A stretch of 39,302 bases of DNA. It comes from a virus. The position numbers and the translations under genes were made by a program. Shown piece after piece: positions 11,674 to 19,565 of the stretch. The stretch is taken from IMG/VR virus record IMGVR_UViG_3300033149_002038, positions 1-39,302 of that record, one strand, 5' to 3'. Below the pieces are notes generated by a model. The model was not told the DNA's origin. It did no database searches and saw nothing but the letters and a program-made list of their open reading frames with translations. The first letter of the stretch is position 1; every line of letters begins with the position of its first letter.

Positions 11674-13002
11674 TCATCTCGCCAAATCCGCCAGCGCCCC
11701 CGTCGGCGCGAAATAGAGCGGGATCCGCAGGCCAGGCTGCGTGCCAGCGAGCCGATCCTTGAACACAATGACCTCCATCACGTTGGGCTGCACAGGGTCC
11801 CTGGCATCGTGCGCCTCGGGGTGCAGGTCGGAGCGATACAGCCCCAGGAGCACGTCGGCGTCCTGGGAGATCCCGCCGCTGGCGTAGGCGTCGGCCTTGC
11901 GCGGGCGCTTGTCCCTGCGCTGCTCGATCGCCTTGTCGCTGATCTGGTGGGCTGTGAGTAGCGGGATCTGCAGCTGATGGCTCAGGGCCTTGAGCGCCCG
12001 GGTTAGGTTGATGATCTCCCAGTTGGCGCTCTCTGCATGGTAGCTGGTGCGGATCAGGCCCAGGTAATCGACGACGATCAGCGCCGGTGGTTCATCGCTC
12101 ATGGCCTCGCGGTAGATCGTGGCCGTGATCCCGGCGACCGTGTCAATCGTGTCGGCTATGTCCATGTTCCATTCGGAGATCCTGGCTGCCATGTCTGTGA
12201 AAGCCTCCACCTGCTCCCGCGTCATGTGGCCCAGGTCGTAGTCCCGCCGGGACACCCGCGCTCGAGCCAGACACAATCGCCGCACCAGGGACGAGGCGCC
12301 CATCTCCAGGGAGAATAGCAGCACCCGCCGCCCGCTCTCCGCCACGCGCGCTGCGGCCCAAAGCAGGAACCACGACTTACCCACGTGCGGTTCGCCCAGG
12401 ACGACGTAGAAGCCAGGGCGCCATCCGCCCAGTGCGCCGTCCAGGTCGCGCCATCCGGTGGAGAGCCCGCGCACCTGGCCGGGTTTGAGTGGTTCCTTGG
12501 TGTAGGCGGCCATCTCGTCGGCGATATCGTTAGCAATGGCCGCCGCGCTCTGTAGTTCTCCGCCAACCATGTGATCGCGCATCCGCTCCATGGCCCAGGC
12601 CGCGACGCCGTCCGTGTCGGCGCTCATGTCGTGGGCCTTGCGCACCAGGTCGGCCGCCACGGCGATCATGCCGCGACGACGGGCTAACTCCTGGATGCGT
12701 TGGGCATATTCCAGCGCATGGACGCTCGTCGGCGTTTCGTTGATCAGTCCGGCGATGGCCGCTGGCCCGCCGACGGATTTCAGGCGCTTGCTGTCGTGGA
12801 GCCTAGCGGAGATCGTCAAAACGTCGATCTGCGCATGCTCGTCCGTGAGGGCGCAGATCGCGTCGTAGACGGCGCGGTTGTTGGCATCCGTGAAGGCCGA
12901 CGGTTCCACGACCGCCCTGACAGCGTGGATGCAGAGCGGGTCGATCAGCATGGAGCCGATCAGCGCCCGCTCTGCGGATGTGTCGGAGAGGATTTGCGTC
13001 AT
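11674..13002 (-). CDS. dnaB: DnaB-like replicative DNA helicase
   Basis: 442 residues. The N-terminal domain (1-110) has the DnaB-N signature SAERALIGSMLIDP and INETPTSVHALEYAQ. The RecA-like core has Walker A GEPHVGKS (203-210), SLEM (231-234), Walker B ALIVVDYLGLI (307-317), and the sensor-type AHQISDKAIEQRRDKRP (351-367), DADVLLGLYR. It unwinds DNA at the phage fork, loaded by the initiator encoded at 14272-15198. No primase or polymerase is seen, so the host enzymes are probably recruited. Its start overlaps the upstream stop as ATGA. Confidence 0.93.
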   Translation of the reverse strand: MTQILSDTSAERALIGSMLIDPLCIHAVRAVVEPSAFTDANNRAVYDAICALTDEHAQIDVLTISARLHDSKRLKSVGGPAAIAGLINETPTSVHALEYAQRIQELARRRGMIAVAADLVRKAHDMSADTDGVAAWAMERMRDHMVGGELQSAAAIANDIADEMAAYTKEPLKPGQVRGLSTGWRDLDGALGGWRPGFYVVLGEPHVGKSWFLLWAAARVAESGRRVLLFSLEMGASSLVRRLCLARARVSRRDYDLGHMTREQVEAFTDMAARISEWNMDIADTIDTVAGITATIYREAMSDEPPALIVVDYLGLIRTSYHAESANWEIINLTRALKALSHQLQIPLLTAHQISDKAIEQRRDKRPRKADAYASGGISQDADVLLGLYRSDLHPEAHDARDPVQPNVMEVIVFKDRLAGTQPGLRIPLYFAPTGALADLAR

Positions 13003-14271: not shown

Positions 14272-15198
14272 CTAATCCTCCGCGTCCGCCAGCGTGAACA
14301 CAGGCCCCAGCCGCTTCGTCTCATCCCGTCGCCGTCTCCCGGGTTTTGGTATCTCGTTGCGCATGTAGTACTCCAGCATCCCGCCAACGTCCATCTTGTT
14401 CCAGCCCACGATCACCCAGGCATGGACGACCTGCTTCCATCGTTCCACGTCCTCGCGTTTGCTGCCAACGGCCTTCACGATGTCGGGCCAGACGGCACGC
14501 GGCGGATACCGGTAGCTGGCGCTCCGAAATGCGGCCACGGCAGGCGGGATGTTTGACGGCGGCTTTCTCCTACGCTTGCGCGGTCTCGTGGGCTTTTTCT
14601 CGGAACCCCCCGGGGAGCCGTCAGGCTGCGCAGCCGGTAGGCTGCGGGACGGCTCGGGATGAGCGGGTGGTTCGGTTGCGGGTTTTGATTCTGAAGCGTC
14701 GCGGCATCCTTCGGATGCACAACTATCTTCAATTAAAGTCAATGTGGCTCTCTCTTCTGGTATACTAGTATCTGGTATACTAATACGTTCAGTTGGCTTA
14801 ACACCAAGTTTAGCTAGCTTAACACCTTGTTCAGCTAGCTTAACGCCCTGATTGCTGGCATTGTAAAAGCGCACGTTGGCCGCCTTCTGTGTGACATGAA
14901 CGTAGAGACGTTGATTTCTCCTGATCGTCTCCACTAGCCCTAATCCGCGTAGCTTCGATATGCGCTGTGATAGCGCAGACTTGCTGATAGCCAGGGCTGG
15001 CATTTCGCTTAGCAGATGATCGTATGAGCACCATACAAATCGCTTACCGGACTCGTCCTGGATGACATCGGCCCCCTCAACCTCTCGCCAGTCGAAAAGA
15101 TAGTCGAGTATTGCCCAGTCATAAAGATCGGTCTTCCCTTTGCCGAACAGCCCGGCCTGTGCGATACCGACCTGATTGATCACAACGGTATATTTCAT
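14272..15198 (-). CDS. winged-helix replication initiator (lambda O / DnaD-like organisation)
   Basis: 308 residues. The N-terminal domain contains a winged helix (about 58-105: SYDHLLSEMPALAISKSALSQRISKLRG then GLVETIRRNQRLYVHV). The middle (about 113-150) has heptad repeats NQGVKLAEQGVKLAKLGVK encoded by tandem DNA repeats. Residues 150-220 are low-complexity Pro/Ser/Lys/Arg. The C-terminal domain (about 225-300, VWPDIVKAVGSKREDVERWKQVV, YYMRNEIP) probably binds the helicase. Domain order and internal iterons resemble lambda O, in which the origin lies inside the initiator gene. It lies in an operon with the upstream wHTH gene and is followed by a hypothetical. Confidence 0.75.
   Translation of the reverse strand: MKYTVVINQVGIAQAGLFGKGKTDLYDWAILDYLFDWREVEGADVIQDESGKRFVWCSYDHLLSEMPALAISKSALSQRISKLRGLGLVETIRRNQRLYVHVTQKAANVRFYNASNQGVKLAEQGVKLAKLGVKPTERISIPDTSIPEERATLTLIEDSCASEGCRDASESKPATEPPAHPEPSRSLPAAQPDGSPGGSEKKPTRPRKRRRKPPSNIPPAVAAFRSASYRYPPRAVWPDIVKAVGSKREDVERWKQVVHAWVIVGWNKMDVGGMLEYYMRNEIPKPGRRRRDETKRLGPVFTLADAED
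14756..14785. repeat. two tandem 15-bp repeats in an AT-rich stretch
   Basis: TCTGGTATACTAGTA (14756-14770) is followed directly by TCTGGTATACTAATA (14771-14785), one mismatch. It sits in the initiator gene beside the three 21-bp iterons. The neighbouring 14720-14790 segment is visibly AT-rich in an otherwise GC-rich genome, as expected of a DNA-unwinding element. Confidence 0.7.
14797..14859. repeat. three 21-bp iterons, candidate replication origin
   Basis: Units at 14797-14817, 14818-14838 and 14839-14859 all begin CTTAAC[A/G]CC and end in a GCTAG or GCTGG block; the first two differ at only three positions. They lie inside the initiator coding region next to an AT-rich segment with further 15-bp repeats. 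This is the layout of lambda-type phage origins (iterons bound by the initiator plus an unwinding element). Confidence 0.65.
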
Positions 15199-15200
15199 GG

Positions 15201-15593
15201 CTATTCCTCCATCTCGAAACGATATAGAGCATCCGCGTCCTCTAGTAGCTCATACAGCTTGTCTGGTATGATGCGGTAATGCCGCGTTGGGGCGCCGTTG
15301 TAGGCGTTTGGCTTGACCACAGTCTCGATGATACCGAGGTCGTCTTCAAGCAGCTTCCTGGCCCTGCGTATCCTGTGCACCGTTGTGCACAATTCGTCTG
15401 CGAGCTCCATGTCTGAACGCGGTATCCATTCCACCTCCGGGAAGGCGAGCGATAGGGCGCCCGCTATGTACATCAGGATAAGCGCCGCGTCTCGATCGCC
15501 TGTGATGTTGTATAGCTCCCACAGCATCGGCAGAAAGCCATCAAGGCAGACAACTGTTCCCCATTTCCTCAGCCATCTCGTCATTTCATCCAT
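15201..15593 (-). CDS. winged-helix-type early protein
   Basis: 130 residues, ATG at 15593 with AAGGAG upstream, immediately after a structured leader. Helical N-terminus (WLRKWGTVVCLDGFLPMLWEL), then a helix-turn-helix with wing (DMELADELCTTVHRIRRARKLLEDDLGIIETVV, TRHYRIIPDKLYELL). Similar in layout to the N-terminal wHTH of the next gene, so it may act in replication initiation or its control. It is followed 2 bp later by the initiator start. Confidence 0.65.
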   Translation of the reverse strand: MDEMTRWLRKWGTVVCLDGFLPMLWELYNITGDRDAALILMYIAGALSLAFPEVEWIPRSDMELADELCTTVHRIRRARKLLEDDLGIIETVVKPNAYNGAPTRHYRIIPDKLYELLEDADALYRFEMEE

Positions 15594-15800
15594 CGCATTC
15601 TCCTTGTCTCCGTCCTTACCCGCCAGGTAAGGGCGCTAACACAAAATCGCCGCCTTGTCGCGGTAGCACGGGGCGTAAAGGGCATTCCCGCTGGCTAAGC
15701 GGGTTTGTGGTCCGTGCCACCGCCACAAAGCGGCGATCTGTTGGAATGTGCGCGACCCTTTACGCCGTGCCTGTTAATCCGACCGGTAGCCATCCGATCT
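15594..15800 (-). ncRNA. structured leader RNA / non-coding region upstream of the replication operon
   Basis: About 207 nt between the predicted start (near 15800) and the ATG at 15593, with no convincing coding. + strand coordinates: arm A 15646-15664 is complementary to A' 15719-15737 (17 of 19). Arm B 15666-15682 is complementary to B' 15756-15770 (one 2-nt bulge). The order A-B-A'-B' makes the pairings cross, which is pseudoknot topology. Local hairpins also form: CCCGCT/AGCGGG (15687-15703) and a perfect 7-bp stem CCTTACC/GGTAAGG (15614-15632) just before the ribosome binding site. It could be a riboswitch-like attenuator, a regulatory RNA or an origin-related structure. Confidence 0.5.
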
Positions 15801-15806
15801 ACTCTC

Positions 15807-15835
15807 ATTATAGCACGGAACGCAGGACATGGCAA
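15807..15835 (-). promoter_or_regulatory. strong sigma-70-type promoter (leftward, replication-initiator block)
   Basis: On the - strand, -35 TTGCCA (15830-15835), 17-bp spacer, perfect -10 TATAAT (15807-15812). It drives the structured leader and the genes at 15201-15593, 14272-15198 and 13751-14269. The 22-bp element seen at the other two leftward promoters is not present here. Confidence 0.8.
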
Positions 15836-15856
15836 GGGGAATCGTGCGGTTGGCCC

Positions 15857-15884
15857 TTGCACAATTGCGGGGATGTGGTACAAT
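15857..15884 (+). promoter_or_regulatory. possible rightward promoter with no gene downstream
   Basis: On the + strand, TTGCAC (15857-15862), 16-bp spacer, TACAAT (15879-15884). The segment GGATGTGGTACAATA resembles GGATGTGGTATAATG of the rightward late promoter at 17598-17626. It points into the leftward zinc-ribbon gene, so a transcript would be antisense or end at the hairpin 15905-15940. Confidence 0.45.
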
Positions 15885-15904
15885 AATAGCACACCTCCTA
15901 GGTT

Positions 15905-15940
15905 GGCGGGGCGTTGGGCCCGGCGGCTCTTCGCCCCGCC
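15905..15940. terminator. GC-rich hairpin at the end of the recombination block
   Basis: GGCGGGGCG (15905-15913) pairs perfectly with CGCCCCGCC (15932-15940). It lies just downstream of the stop of the leftward gene ending at 15947. There is no U-tract on either strand, so termination strength is uncertain. It could also stop the rightward promoter at 15857-15884. Confidence 0.4.
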
Positions 15941-15946
15941 GCCACG

Positions 15947-16372
15947 TCAGGCCTCGATCTCGGACAGATACTGCTCAGCCTCAGCGGCCAGGTCATCCGG
16001 CAGACCGTCGATGCGCACGCCGAGCCGCCACAGATCCGCCACAAGGTAGACAGGTTTGGTGGCGGCCTCCTCATCCCTCAGCCACCAGCGGGTGATGATC
16101 TCGCCCGTGAGGTCGTCGATGAGCTCAAGATAGTCATCGCGCACGCGCCCGAAGGCATGCTGGAGGCGGCCTGCGCATTCGTTGCAGATTCCGCCGCCAT
16201 AGGTGTTGTGACCGCACACCGGGCAGGCGTGGCTGGCCGAGTCAATCAGAAAGGCCACTGGTGCCCCGTGAGTCCTCATGATCGTCTCAAGGAGGGAAGG
16301 CGTGATCCGCCTTCCCTTCCGGATGCCATAATGAAGCATGGCGTCTATGAATTTGTTTTCTCCCATCATCAT
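15947..16372 (-). CDS. zinc-ribbon hypothetical protein
   Basis: 141 residues, first of three ATGs at 16372, 6 nt after GAGGAGG, overlapping region of the ERF gene's stop. Residues 1-45 form a helical domain (RITPSLLETIMRTHG). A zinc ribbon follows with C50-x2-C53-x9-C63-x2-C66 (CPVCGHNTYGGGICNEC). The C-terminus is acidic and helical (DDYLELIDDLTGEIITRWWL). It shares an operon with the ERF recombinase; an accessory of annealing or replication is possible. Last gene of its block. Confidence 0.65.
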   Translation of the reverse strand: MMMGENKFIDAMLHYGIRKGRRITPSLLETIMRTHGAPVAFLIDSASHACPVCGHNTYGGGICNECAGRLQHAFGRVRDDYLELIDDLTGEIITRWWLRDEEAATKPVYLVADLWRLGVRIDGLPDDLAAEAEQYLSEIEA

Positions 16373-16373
16373 G

Positions 16374-17318
16374 TCATGCCTCCTCTAGTCCTGGGATTTG
16401 TGGGTTCAGCTCGCGCATGACGGCCGCGAGCTCCAGAGCTGTGGCTGCATCGAAGCTCCAGGAACCGTCATTCTCTTGGCGGAATGACAGCCAGCGCCGC
16501 AACGTCTCCAGCGTTGCATCATCCCACTGCGTCGCGGACGCTGGGATACCGAGCCAGGACGCGAACTCGTGATGGTCGGCGATCTTGTCAATGGCCGCCA
16601 CGATTGCGCCACGCAGATTGTCGGCGCGATGGGGGTCCAGGGTGAAGCCAGCCGTCAGCTTGGCGTCGATGGCGCGGATGAGCATTGTCCTCAGGGTCGC
16701 TGGGTCATAAGGGCGCTCCGCTGGCTTGCGCTCCTGCTCCTGCTGCTGTGCCGCTCGCTCCTCCTCGTCCCAGAGATCACGGGGCTCGGCCGGCGGGACT
16801 GGTTCGGCCTTGTTCTGCTGCTTGTGATCCTGTCCCCAGACACCGCCTGGCTTGGGCGGCCGGGGGCGGCCAGGCGATTTGCTCGGTTCGCCGTCGGTGT
16901 CGTCCTCGGCGGCGATGCCGAACAGCGCCGAGAGGCTGTAGCGGCGCGCGTAGGTGATGGCTGCGCCGAGAGATTGGGCCTCGTTTTTGCCAGCGACAGC
17001 AGGGAGCGGCATCGAGGTCTCGAACTTCTCTCCGCTCTCTGGATCCACAATGATCGTGTTCAGGAAGAGCTGCTCGCTAGCAGAGTTTGTCGCAGCCGGG
17101 TTAGCTATTTTGGACAACGGGCTAGAGCCCGCGCGCCCGCCGGGCGTCACGACTGTCTGGATTAGCACCAGCCCCGCGTCATTCAGCGCGGGCTTGAGCG
17201 CGCCGAGCAGATCGTCGAGGGTCACATAGTCGCTCTTGGTGAACGGGTTGCGCCCCCGGCGCGGGACTGCACCGAGGGCCTTCTGGACGGACAGCAGTTT
17301 GCCATAGACCGATTTCAT
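16374..17318 (-). CDS. erf: ERF-family single-strand DNA annealing protein
   Basis: 314 residues. The N-terminal 140 residues match the ERF pattern: NPFTKSDYVTLDDLLGALKPALNDAGLVLIQ and AGKNEAQSLGAAITYARRYSLS then ALFGIAAEDDTDG. ERF proteins anneal single strands and recircularise or recombine phage DNA, which suits terminally redundant genomes packaged from concatemers. A Ser/Ala/Asn insertion (about 57-82) sits between core strands. The C-terminal half is a Pro/Gln-rich linker then a helical domain (about 220-300). Start overlaps the upstream stop as ATGA. First major gene downstream of the promoter at 17519-17547. Confidence 0.88.
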   Translation of the reverse strand: MKSVYGKLLSVQKALGAVPRRGRNPFTKSDYVTLDDLLGALKPALNDAGLVLIQTVVTPGGRAGSSPLSKIANPAATNSASEQLFLNTIIVDPESGEKFETSMPLPAVAGKNEAQSLGAAITYARRYSLSALFGIAAEDDTDGEPSKSPGRPRPPKPGGVWGQDHKQQNKAEPVPPAEPRDLWDEEERAAQQQEQERKPAERPYDPATLRTMLIRAIDAKLTAGFTLDPHRADNLRGAIVAAIDKIADHHEFASWLGIPASATQWDDATLETLRRWLSFRQENDGSWSFDAATALELAAVMRELNPQIPGLEEA

Positions 17319-17683: not shown

Positions 17684-18328
17684 ATGGCCGACAATGAGCT
17701 GCGGCTGGAGTGGCTGGATCCTGGAGAGCTGGCGGAGAACCCGCTCAACTGGCGTCGCCACACGCGAGAGCAGCGGGCCGCGCTGGAGGATGTCATCGAC
17801 GAGGTTGGCTGGGCCGGGGTGCTGCTCTACAATGAAGCGACAGGCCGCCTGATTGACGGCCACCTGCGCCGGGATGTGGCGGAGAAGCGCGGGGAGCCTG
17901 TGCCTGTGCTGGTTGGTTCCTGGAGCGAGGAGCAGGAGCGGCTCATCCTGGCGACGCTGGATCCGATCGCCGCAATGGCGGAGGCCAACGCCGAGGCGCT
18001 GGACGAGTTACTGCAATCGCTAACGACGGACAGCGACGCCGTGGCGGAGTTGCTGGCGGAGCTGGCGCTGGAGGCGGAGGAGCCCTACGGAGATACATCA
18101 ACTGACCGCGACGGACAGGGTGTTTCGAGCACGTGGGATCAGGTGAAGGGCGCGCAGCACATCGCGGTGATTTTGGGCGACGTGGAGACGCACCTACCAG
18201 GAGAGGTGATTGAGATGCTCGTGGCTGTGCTGGACAAGGAGTTCCAGGAGCACGGCGCGCCGATATACGAGACGCTTGAGCAGATCGTTGTGATGGGGGT
18301 GCGGGCCTTTGAGAATCGCAATCATTGA
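17684..18328 (+). CDS. ParB/Srx-fold domain protein
   Basis: 214 residues. Residues 1-95 carry the ParB-like nuclease/Srx signature: LDPGELAENPLNWRRHTREQ, GWAGVLLYNEATGRLIDGHLRRDVA (the DGHLR phosphate-binding motif) and ILATLDPIAAMAEANAEAL. The remainder (100-214) is acidic with an alpha/beta end (HIAVILGDVETHLPGEVIEML) and is not the methyltransferase often fused to this domain in phages. ParB/Srx folds bind and process nucleotides or DNA. The rSAM gene starts 20 bp before its stop, so the two are coupled. First gene of the late operon. Confidence 0.8.
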   Translation: MADNELRLEWLDPGELAENPLNWRRHTREQRAALEDVIDEVGWAGVLLYNEATGRLIDGHLRRDVAEKRGEPVPVLVGSWSEEQERLILATLDPIAAMAEANAEALDELLQSLTTDSDAVAELLAELALEAEEPYGDTSTDRDGQGVSSTWDQVKGAQHIAVILGDVETHLPGEVIEMLVAVLDKEFQEHGAPIYETLEQIVVMGVRAFENRNH

Positions 18329-19565
18329 CGCCAACTATCACAGGCGAGCGCACCGTGGGTTGGCGGCTAGCTGGCTCCAGTGGGAGTTGGAGCGGGCTGG
18401 GATTGCGGAGAGCGCCCCGTCATTAGCCGATATTCTGTTGGTGACGGTTTCGAGCCAGCAGGGCGTGGCGGATGTAAAGCGGGCGTTACGGGCCACTGGC
18501 AACCATCACGCCGTTGTGGTGTTGGGTGGCGGCGGGTGTTATGCGCCGGCCGTGTTTGATGACCTGGCCGACCTGATCTGCGTCGGCGAGGGCGCGCGGT
18601 TCATCCGCACGCTGTTACGAGATGGGCTGGATGCAGCCGCCGCCCTTCCCGAGGCGTGGGTGCCGGGAGAATCGCGCGAGGTGGTACCAAACGAGGATTT
18701 TCCGTGGGAGGTGCCGCCGCTCAGACATCCCGATGGGACGGTGCGTGTTTTCGGTGCGCGCGGCTGCCGCTACAAGTGCCTGTTCTGCCAGACCGGATGG
18801 GAATCATCCTATCGGCCGAATCCGGCTCCAGACCGGCTTAGCGCGCAGATACGAAAACTTGAGCGTGACGGCCACCGGGTTGCGATTGTGACAAATGACG
18901 CAGCAGAGGAGCGCGTGATCTGGCCGGGCCAACAGGAGTTCCTGTCGGTCCGGATGCAGAACCTGAAAAAGCTCATGCCGCTGACCAGGAAACAGGTCAA
19001 ATCCGTGAGGATTGGTGTGGAGGGTATTTCGGAGCGATTGCGCGTTGCCGTTGGAAAACCGGTTCATAACGAGGACCTGCTGAATGTTTCGTTTAGCCTT
19101 TTGGCTAACGGGGTTGGGGTGCGTTGGTTTTTCATTCCCGGGCTTCCGGGCGAAACCGACGACGATTATGATGAACTGCGCTGGCTCGTGAGGGAGCTAC
19201 ACAAGTTACCAAAAGGCGTGGTGATGATGAACTTCCATGCATTCATACCGCAACCAGCCGCCCCGCTTGGCGTCCTGCCGTTGCAGGACGATTACTGGGA
19301 GCGTTTTGACGAGTTCCGGCGCTGGTTCTTTCACGGGTTGGGGTTTACGCGGCACGTGCAGATTATCGCCCCGGCGCGCTATCCTGGGCGCCTGAAACGC
19401 GCCCAACAGAGCATGGCGGCGACTGCGAGCGAATTACGCGCGGGATGGTTTGAGCGGCCGAATCCGAACTGGCGCGTACGGTACCCGGATACCGTTGAGG
19501 TGCGTCGCCGGGTTGCGAGGAAGTACGCCGAGAAGGTGGGATTTAGGATAGCGAAGGCGGGATAG
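18309..19565 (+). CDS. radical SAM enzyme with B12-binding-like N-terminal domain
   Basis: 418 residues from a TTG start (18309) with GGGGGTG upstream, inside the ParB-like gene's end. Residues 1-120 have the Rossmann-like layout of cobalamin-binding domains (MRIAIIDANYHRRAHRGLAA, VVVLGGGGCYAPAV, DLICVGEGARFIRTLLRDG). The radical SAM core carries GCRYKCLFCQTGW with C153-x3-C157-x2-C160 for the 4Fe-4S cluster. Later come GVEGISERLR and FIPGLPGETDDDYDELRWLV (the GxPGET element of MiaB-like/class B enzymes), and MNFHAFIPQPAAPLG. It generates a 5'-deoxyadenosyl radical; the substrate is unknown. Its place among ParB, HNH and terminase suggests a nucleic acid or virion target. Confidence 0.85.
   Translation: MRIAIIDANYHRRAHRGLAASWLQWELERAGIAESAPSLADILLVTVSSQQGVADVKRALRATGNHHAVVVLGGGGCYAPAVFDDLADLICVGEGARFIRTLLRDGLDAAAALPEAWVPGESREVVPNEDFPWEVPPLRHPDGTVRVFGARGCRYKCLFCQTGWESSYRPNPAPDRLSAQIRKLERDGHRVAIVTNDAAEERVIWPGQQEFLSVRMQNLKKLMPLTRKQVKSVRIGVEGISERLRVAVGKPVHNEDLLNVSFSLLANGVGVRWFFIPGLPGETDDDYDELRWLVRELHKLPKGVVMMNFHAFIPQPAAPLGVLPLQDDYWERFDEFRRWFFHGLGFTRHVQIIAPARYPGRLKRAQQSMAATASELRAGWFERPNPNWRVRYPDTVEVRRRVARKYAEKVGFRIAKAG

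Follow-up and report, generated by a model that had tools for sequence, protein, structure and literature searches.

A candidate attenuator with two competing folds in the replication-operon leader of an environmental phage

The replication operon of an environmental phage was found to be preceded by a structured non-coding leader, in which two extended helices compete for the same nucleotides and the longer one carries a U-rich tract at its base. We propose, tentatively and at somewhat below even probability, that this leader is a terminator/antiterminator-like attenuator of the replication operon acting through the two competing folds; it is regarded as a well-defined but unproven attenuator candidate. 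The window analyzed was a virus record of 39,302 bases, and this single sequence stands behind all conclusions on the leader. Most known examples of a folding leader that controls replication genes come from plasmids and the satellite phage P4. If the proposal is true, the lambda-like RepO operon studied here would add an independent example and suggest a repeated origin of the same solution. The replication module of this environmental phage had no close relatives in the collections searched, and the leader would offer a compact RNA with two directly testable folds.

Results and Discussion

Genetic context, promoter and non-coding leader

The window contained genes of the head, tail, recombination and replication classes. 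The leader was located on the minus strand within a gene block running from approximately 17.9 kb down to approximately 11.3 kb, in a 353-bp gap between a gene for a small protein (15947-16372, minus strand) and p130 (15201-15593, minus strand), the first gene of the replication operon. An Erf-like annealing protein was encoded on the same strand at 16374-17318. The product of p130 was initiator- or helicase-loader-like according to weak profile matches (phrog_428, replication initiation, E 4e-4; phrog_6493, DnaD-like helicase loader, E 2e-3), and its structure model was unusable (pLDDT 49). The next gene, p308 (14272-15198, minus strand), encoded a RepO-like replication initiator, with residues 1-105 matching RepO of Campylobacter phage PC22 (31% identical, E 6e-5) and the C-terminal part showing similarity to the RepO-like initiator of the phage contig L071. 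Two unknown proteins lay between p308 and the gene for a DnaB-like replicative helicase (11674-13002, minus strand).

A sigma-70-like promoter (TTGCCA-17-TATAAT), whose -10 box is preceded by TGn, was present at 15807-15835 on the minus strand. It agreed with 11/12 of the consensus and was the top-scoring promoter-like site in the 14.5 kb scanned, bearing out the perfect TATAAT promoter of the original prediction. Judging from the position of the -10 box, the start of minus-strand transcription is expected near 15800, which would give a 5' leader of approximately 207 nt (15594-15800). When compared with shuffled sequences, this leader showed a folding z of -4.95 on the minus strand (0/200 as good) and -3.57 on the plus strand, in line with the earlier claim of a structured leader ahead of replication genes. 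The G+C content by codon position was flat in all three frames, indicating the absence of a coding pattern, and a 32-codon reading frame from 15793 was rejected as it had no coding signature. The search of Rfam gave no match to the leader at gathering thresholds and just unrelated weak matches at E up to 5, consistent with the earlier remark that it could be matched to no known riboswitch.

Besides the two long helices described below, three further hairpins had been predicted, and all of them were found by folding: the 5' hairpin P0 (GAUCGG / CCGGUC, 15781-15799), a small hairpin inside the loop of stem A (CCCGCU / AGCGGG, 15687-15703) and hairpin S4 (15611-15635). S4 ended 5 nt before the Shine-Dalgarno sequence AAGGAG (15600-15605), as read from the sequence, and the ATG of p130 followed 6 nt further. 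An antisense promoter was not found within the leader. Just one other promoter-like site was detected, at 15858-15887 on the plus strand; it was directed away from the leader, weak (9/12), and antisense to the upstream genes. An inverted repeat, GCAAGGG-N15-CCCTTGC (15832-15860), overlapped the -35 box of the leader promoter and could be an operator. The stop codon of the small-protein gene (15947-16372) was closely followed by a G+C-rich hairpin lacking a U tract (15905-15940), which may end the upstream transcript. The 31-nt similarity between the promoter region and L112 was ascribed to promoter resemblance, and homology was rejected.

The long hairpin, stem A

The 5' arm A' (15712-15739) and the 3' arm A (15644-15671) formed a long hairpin on the minus-strand RNA, designated stem A. 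The arms of 26 nt (15646-15671 / 15712-15737) were 88% complementary and enclosed a loop of 40 nt, and the stem grew to 28 nt per arm (15644-15671 / 15712-15739) when G-U pairs were allowed. Pairing was possible at 25 of the 26 positions, including two G.U pairs, with a single G.G mismatch, and the energy of the hairpin was -59.2 kcal/mol. Complementary arms A and A' had been predicted at this place; they were indeed present, with a length of 26-28 nt rather than 19 nt. Stem A outscored every other inverted repeat in the window; it reached 64, whereas 30 random windows with matching dinucleotide composition did not exceed 54. The wobble pairs of the stem, G.U when read from the minus strand, would turn into A.C in an RNA of the plus strand, which favors an RNA of the minus strand.

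A crossing helix competing with stem A

The segment B' (15755-15771), lying upstream of stem A on the minus strand, was complementary to the segment B with its extension (15665-15683). The core of the B'.B helix, connecting the loop of A with the upstream leader, was a perfect helix of 11 bp (15672-15682 / 15756-15766), and the extended helix consisted of 17 bp with a 2-nt bulge (15755-15771 / 15665-15683). At least 11 Watson-Crick pairs between the upstream leader and the loop occurred in 8 of 20,000 dinucleotide shuffles of the upstream part. The 6-nt extension was ordinary, with 443 of 4096 random extensions being equally stable, and the energy of the gapped duplex between upstream leader and loop was likewise ordinary (matched in 209/2000). 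The statistically firm elements were stem A, the 11-bp B'.B core, the promoter and the U tract.

The nucleotides 15665-15671 form the top of stem A and were also claimed by B'.B in its extended form, making the two extended helices mutually exclusive, while the B'.B core and lower stem A crossed without overlap and were the only parts that could coexist. The B arm had been predicted to start at 15666; its core pairs with B' as proposed, whereas 15666-15671 belong to the top of stem A as well. The interleaving of the arms held for the cores, which cannot be nested. As the extended helices share 15665-15671, two competing folds provide a better reading than one static pseudoknot.

A true H-type pseudoknot with both cores coexisting, which would make the leader a ligand- or polymerase-binding RNA of riboswitch-like or HK022 put-like type, appears quite improbable. 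The two cores do not overlap and each is individually far above chance, but the extended helices do overlap, and Rfam gave no match. Moreover, the linker from B' to A' is 15 nt and would bridge abutting helices of 12 bp and 27-28 bp, so that the presence of both full helices together looks strained on geometric grounds. The put RNA of HK022, approximately 70 nt with two stem-loops, suppresses termination (PMC9378689). Both put, which affects transcript elongation, and the present leader are structured RNAs that closely follow an early phage promoter; the leader differs in its 26-28-bp stem, its loop of 40 nt and its U tract.

No place in the related phage and prophage loci scanned, 1.85 Mb in total, combined a hairpin with a crossing helix of comparable size. 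The look-alikes of the topology were all rejected: L168 was low-complexity G+C-rich sequence, L071 represented iterons inside an initiator gene, and L155 was an unrelated stretch. The last, on an unrelated phage contig (L155:489-679), had a long hairpin with a 9-bp crossing match upstream. The score of stem A, the B'.B shuffles and the lack of a comparable case in the 1.85 Mb indicated that the observation is real and unlikely to have arisen by chance. Functionless chance inverted repeats in a G+C-rich gap thus have hardly any probability as an explanation, even though conservation was seen in none of the collections searched.

Folding of the growing transcript

The order of folding, B'.B followed by A, was predicted by nested folding of growing transcripts. 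The probability of B'.B was 1.00 for 3' ends from 15672 to 15656, its displacement by stem A was predicted once the 3' end reached about 15654-15650, and stem A was ahead of B'.B by approximately 14 kcal/mol at a 3' end of 15640, in nested models that leave out pseudoknots, the polymerase footprint and pausing. Since stem A clearly wins at equilibrium, B'.B would matter only kinetically.

The folding series also suggested hairpin S4 as a third competing element, but its pairing was not above chance, being equalled in 177 of 1000 shuffles for B' and in 580 of 1000 for B. Exclusive folds controlling the stem near the ribosome-binding site, as suggested in the original prediction, were thus not supported, and S4 ends before the Shine-Dalgarno sequence. 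These results bear on a translational or autogenous control, in which the leader would be bound by p130 or the RepO-like p308, or its fold would open or close the ribosome site of the first gene. The minimum-energy fold does pair the linker 15740-15755 with the Shine-Dalgarno region, but 96-213 of 1000 shuffles were as good, and masking of the Shine-Dalgarno sequence by the linker was rejected as not above chance. As S4 does not cover that sequence and no RNA-binding domain was recognized in either p130 or p308, control at this level is considered distinctly unlikely.

Terminator-like base of stem A

Intrinsic terminators usually have small loops. The base of stem A carried the U-rich tract UUUUGUGUU, as intrinsic terminators do; the first base of the tract UUUUGUGUUA (15637-15646, minus strand) is also the final one of the 26-bp stem. 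T-rich decamers of this type occurred nine times on the minus strand of the 39 kb window, and one of them was placed exactly at the base of stem A. The terminator score d, calculated by a formula taken from general knowledge, was positive (14.5), while the 40-nt loop breaks the loop-size rule, which accounts for the absence of stem A from the standard terminator scan.

RNase III-type stems in early phage leaders, such as those of lambda N and T7, are well known. Stem A, nearly perfect over 26-28 bp, is long enough for double cleavage, and the 26-bp stem could be cut by host RNase III, trimming the leader, changing p130 translation or setting mRNA half-life, with B'.B being secondary or incidental. 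Processing of this kind would, however, leave unexplained both the 11-bp B'.B core (8/20,000) and the U tract located exactly at the stem base, and we consider it unlikely.

The leader possesses features of an attenuator, namely a promoter followed by a non-coding leader ahead of a gene, and an alternative 17-bp B'.B helix sharing 15665-15671 with the terminator-like stem. The U tract at the base of stem A together with the competing upstream helix led us to prefer transcription attenuation. According to this proposal, RNA polymerase would initiate near 15800 on the minus strand, and B' would pair first with B and the top of the 3' arm of A (17 bp), delaying stem A. As the rest of the 3' arm emerges, A' would invade to form the 26-28-bp hairpin, whose base would meet the U-rich tract, where the polymerase may stop. 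If stem A forms in time, the transcript would end approximately 45 nt short of the first gene; if B'.B persists, read-through would proceed into p130, RepO and DnaB and across the origin within the RepO gene. We infer such termination in the leader, as well as a signal biasing the choice of fold, for which a protein, a ribosome or the terminated RNA itself, with its exposed B pairing with B' of new transcripts, would be candidates.

The last of these candidates can be formulated as a model in which the terminated leader RNA is its own regulator: B displayed in the loop would pair in trans with B' of new transcripts, block B'.B and thereby promote termination. This extension is very unlikely in our estimation; if true, it would represent a self-reinforcing brake that consists of RNA alone, acts on a replicon of the lambda O type and is independent in sequence of that of P4.

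Comparison with known replication leaders

In the replication leaders of the plasmids pT181 and pIP501, an upstream pre-emptor competes with a terminator hairpin (PMC5703833). The attenuator proposed here would resemble those of pT181 repC and pIP501 repR, as a leader with a terminator-like hairpin stands before an initiator gene and an upstream sequence pairs with a hairpin arm, preventing the hairpin. The switch in these plasmids is set by an antisense RNA, whereas the present leader contains no antisense promoter, and membership in the pT181/pIP501 group fails for this reason. The same result spoke against the plasmid-like copy-control RNA that had been raised as a possibility. In addition, the pre-emptor of pT181 contests the 5' arm, whereas the upstream sequence here contests the loop and the 3' arm, and the replicon is lambda-O-like, unlike those of the plasmids.

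In P4 immunity, the leader gives rise to an RNA that acts as the antisense factor and makes transcription of the replication operon stop prematurely (PMC4825925). The present leader is similar to the P4 system (CI RNA, seqA/seqC) in that complementary leader segments are located ahead of a phage replication operon, where they control premature termination in P4. The upstream target B' was present, but no downstream seqC-like target was above chance (580/1000 shuffles), so that membership in the P4 type fails for lack of a second target segment above chance. No Rfam family was matched, neither an integrase nor a repressor was recognized among the ORFs scanned, and the trans-acting RNA is, unlike that of P4, only hypothetical here.

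Replication origin inside p308

Two 15-bp repeats, TCTGGTATACTA(G/A)TA (14756-14785), and three 21-bp repeats (14787-14849) were found by repeat search inside p308. The latter were the only tandem array in the window, with near-palindromic units of GTTnAGCTAGCTTAAC. The region 14756-14849 on the minus strand is thus the probable replication origin, and the phage origin is probably inside the RepO-like gene, as in the lambda O arrangement. The contig L071, whose terminase is 56% identical, also has a RepO-like gene with iterons in the middle of the gene, at a position corresponding to that in p308. In L071:3054-3235, many AAAGGTGACA repeats in both orientations were seen within the RepO-like gene, a second example of an origin in an initiator gene.

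The repeats lie approximately 0.8 kb from the leader, and the leader itself contained neither iterons nor an AT-rich stretch typical of an origin. This placement did not support the earlier suggestion of an origin-associated structure. A DNA-level element, being a replication origin, operator or other palindromic site rather than an RNA, is an extremely improbable explanation of the leader. A broad minimum of G+C skew, lowest at 16527 and flat over about 15.6-17.6 kb, does include it, but the iterons and short AT-richer repeats were inside the RepO-like gene, as were the iterons of L071, and the G.U wobbles of stem A favor a minus-strand RNA. The RNA-based prophage origins of mycobacteriophages (PMC7157519) were also considered, and were set aside because an initiator gene with iterons is present.

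The replication operon thus resembles the lambda O module in having an initiator gene with iterons and being read from an upstream promoter. To our knowledge, lambda has no comparable hairpin leader beside O, unlike the 207-nt leader directly upstream of the operon here. The lambda origin has four iterons and needs transcription across it, known as transcriptional activation (PMC3985674). By analogy, termination in the leader would affect both the supply of the initiator and the activation of the origin.

Search for relatives

No relatives of the leader or p130, and no close relatives of p308 or DnaB, were present among the matches listed from the IMG/VR, phage, plasmid and genome collections. 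IMG/VR was searched with p130, p308 and DnaB. Patterns of the arm DNA gave no relative, and no relative of the leader was found in phages and plasmids searched by DNA and protein, or in genome contigs searched with DnaB and the terminase. Queries with the DnaB alignment and with a DnaB fragment, from which a stretch was missing, returned matches of 24-46% identity that shared no module. The DnaB matches in 396 genomes of the class to which the best-matching Anaerolineales genome belongs were just 30-35% identical. The relatives identified through the terminase had head genes in common with the phage, but not the leader.

The genome is a mosaic with an orphan replication module, as far as these sequence comparisons reach. 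The terminase was at most 73% identical to those of IMG/VR contigs and 65% identical to that of an Anaerolineales genome fragment (L166), and the replication module was common to none of them. The gene at 18309-19565, adjoining the packaging genes, encoded a radical SAM protein weakly similar to B12-binding families, which is an unusual cargo for a phage.
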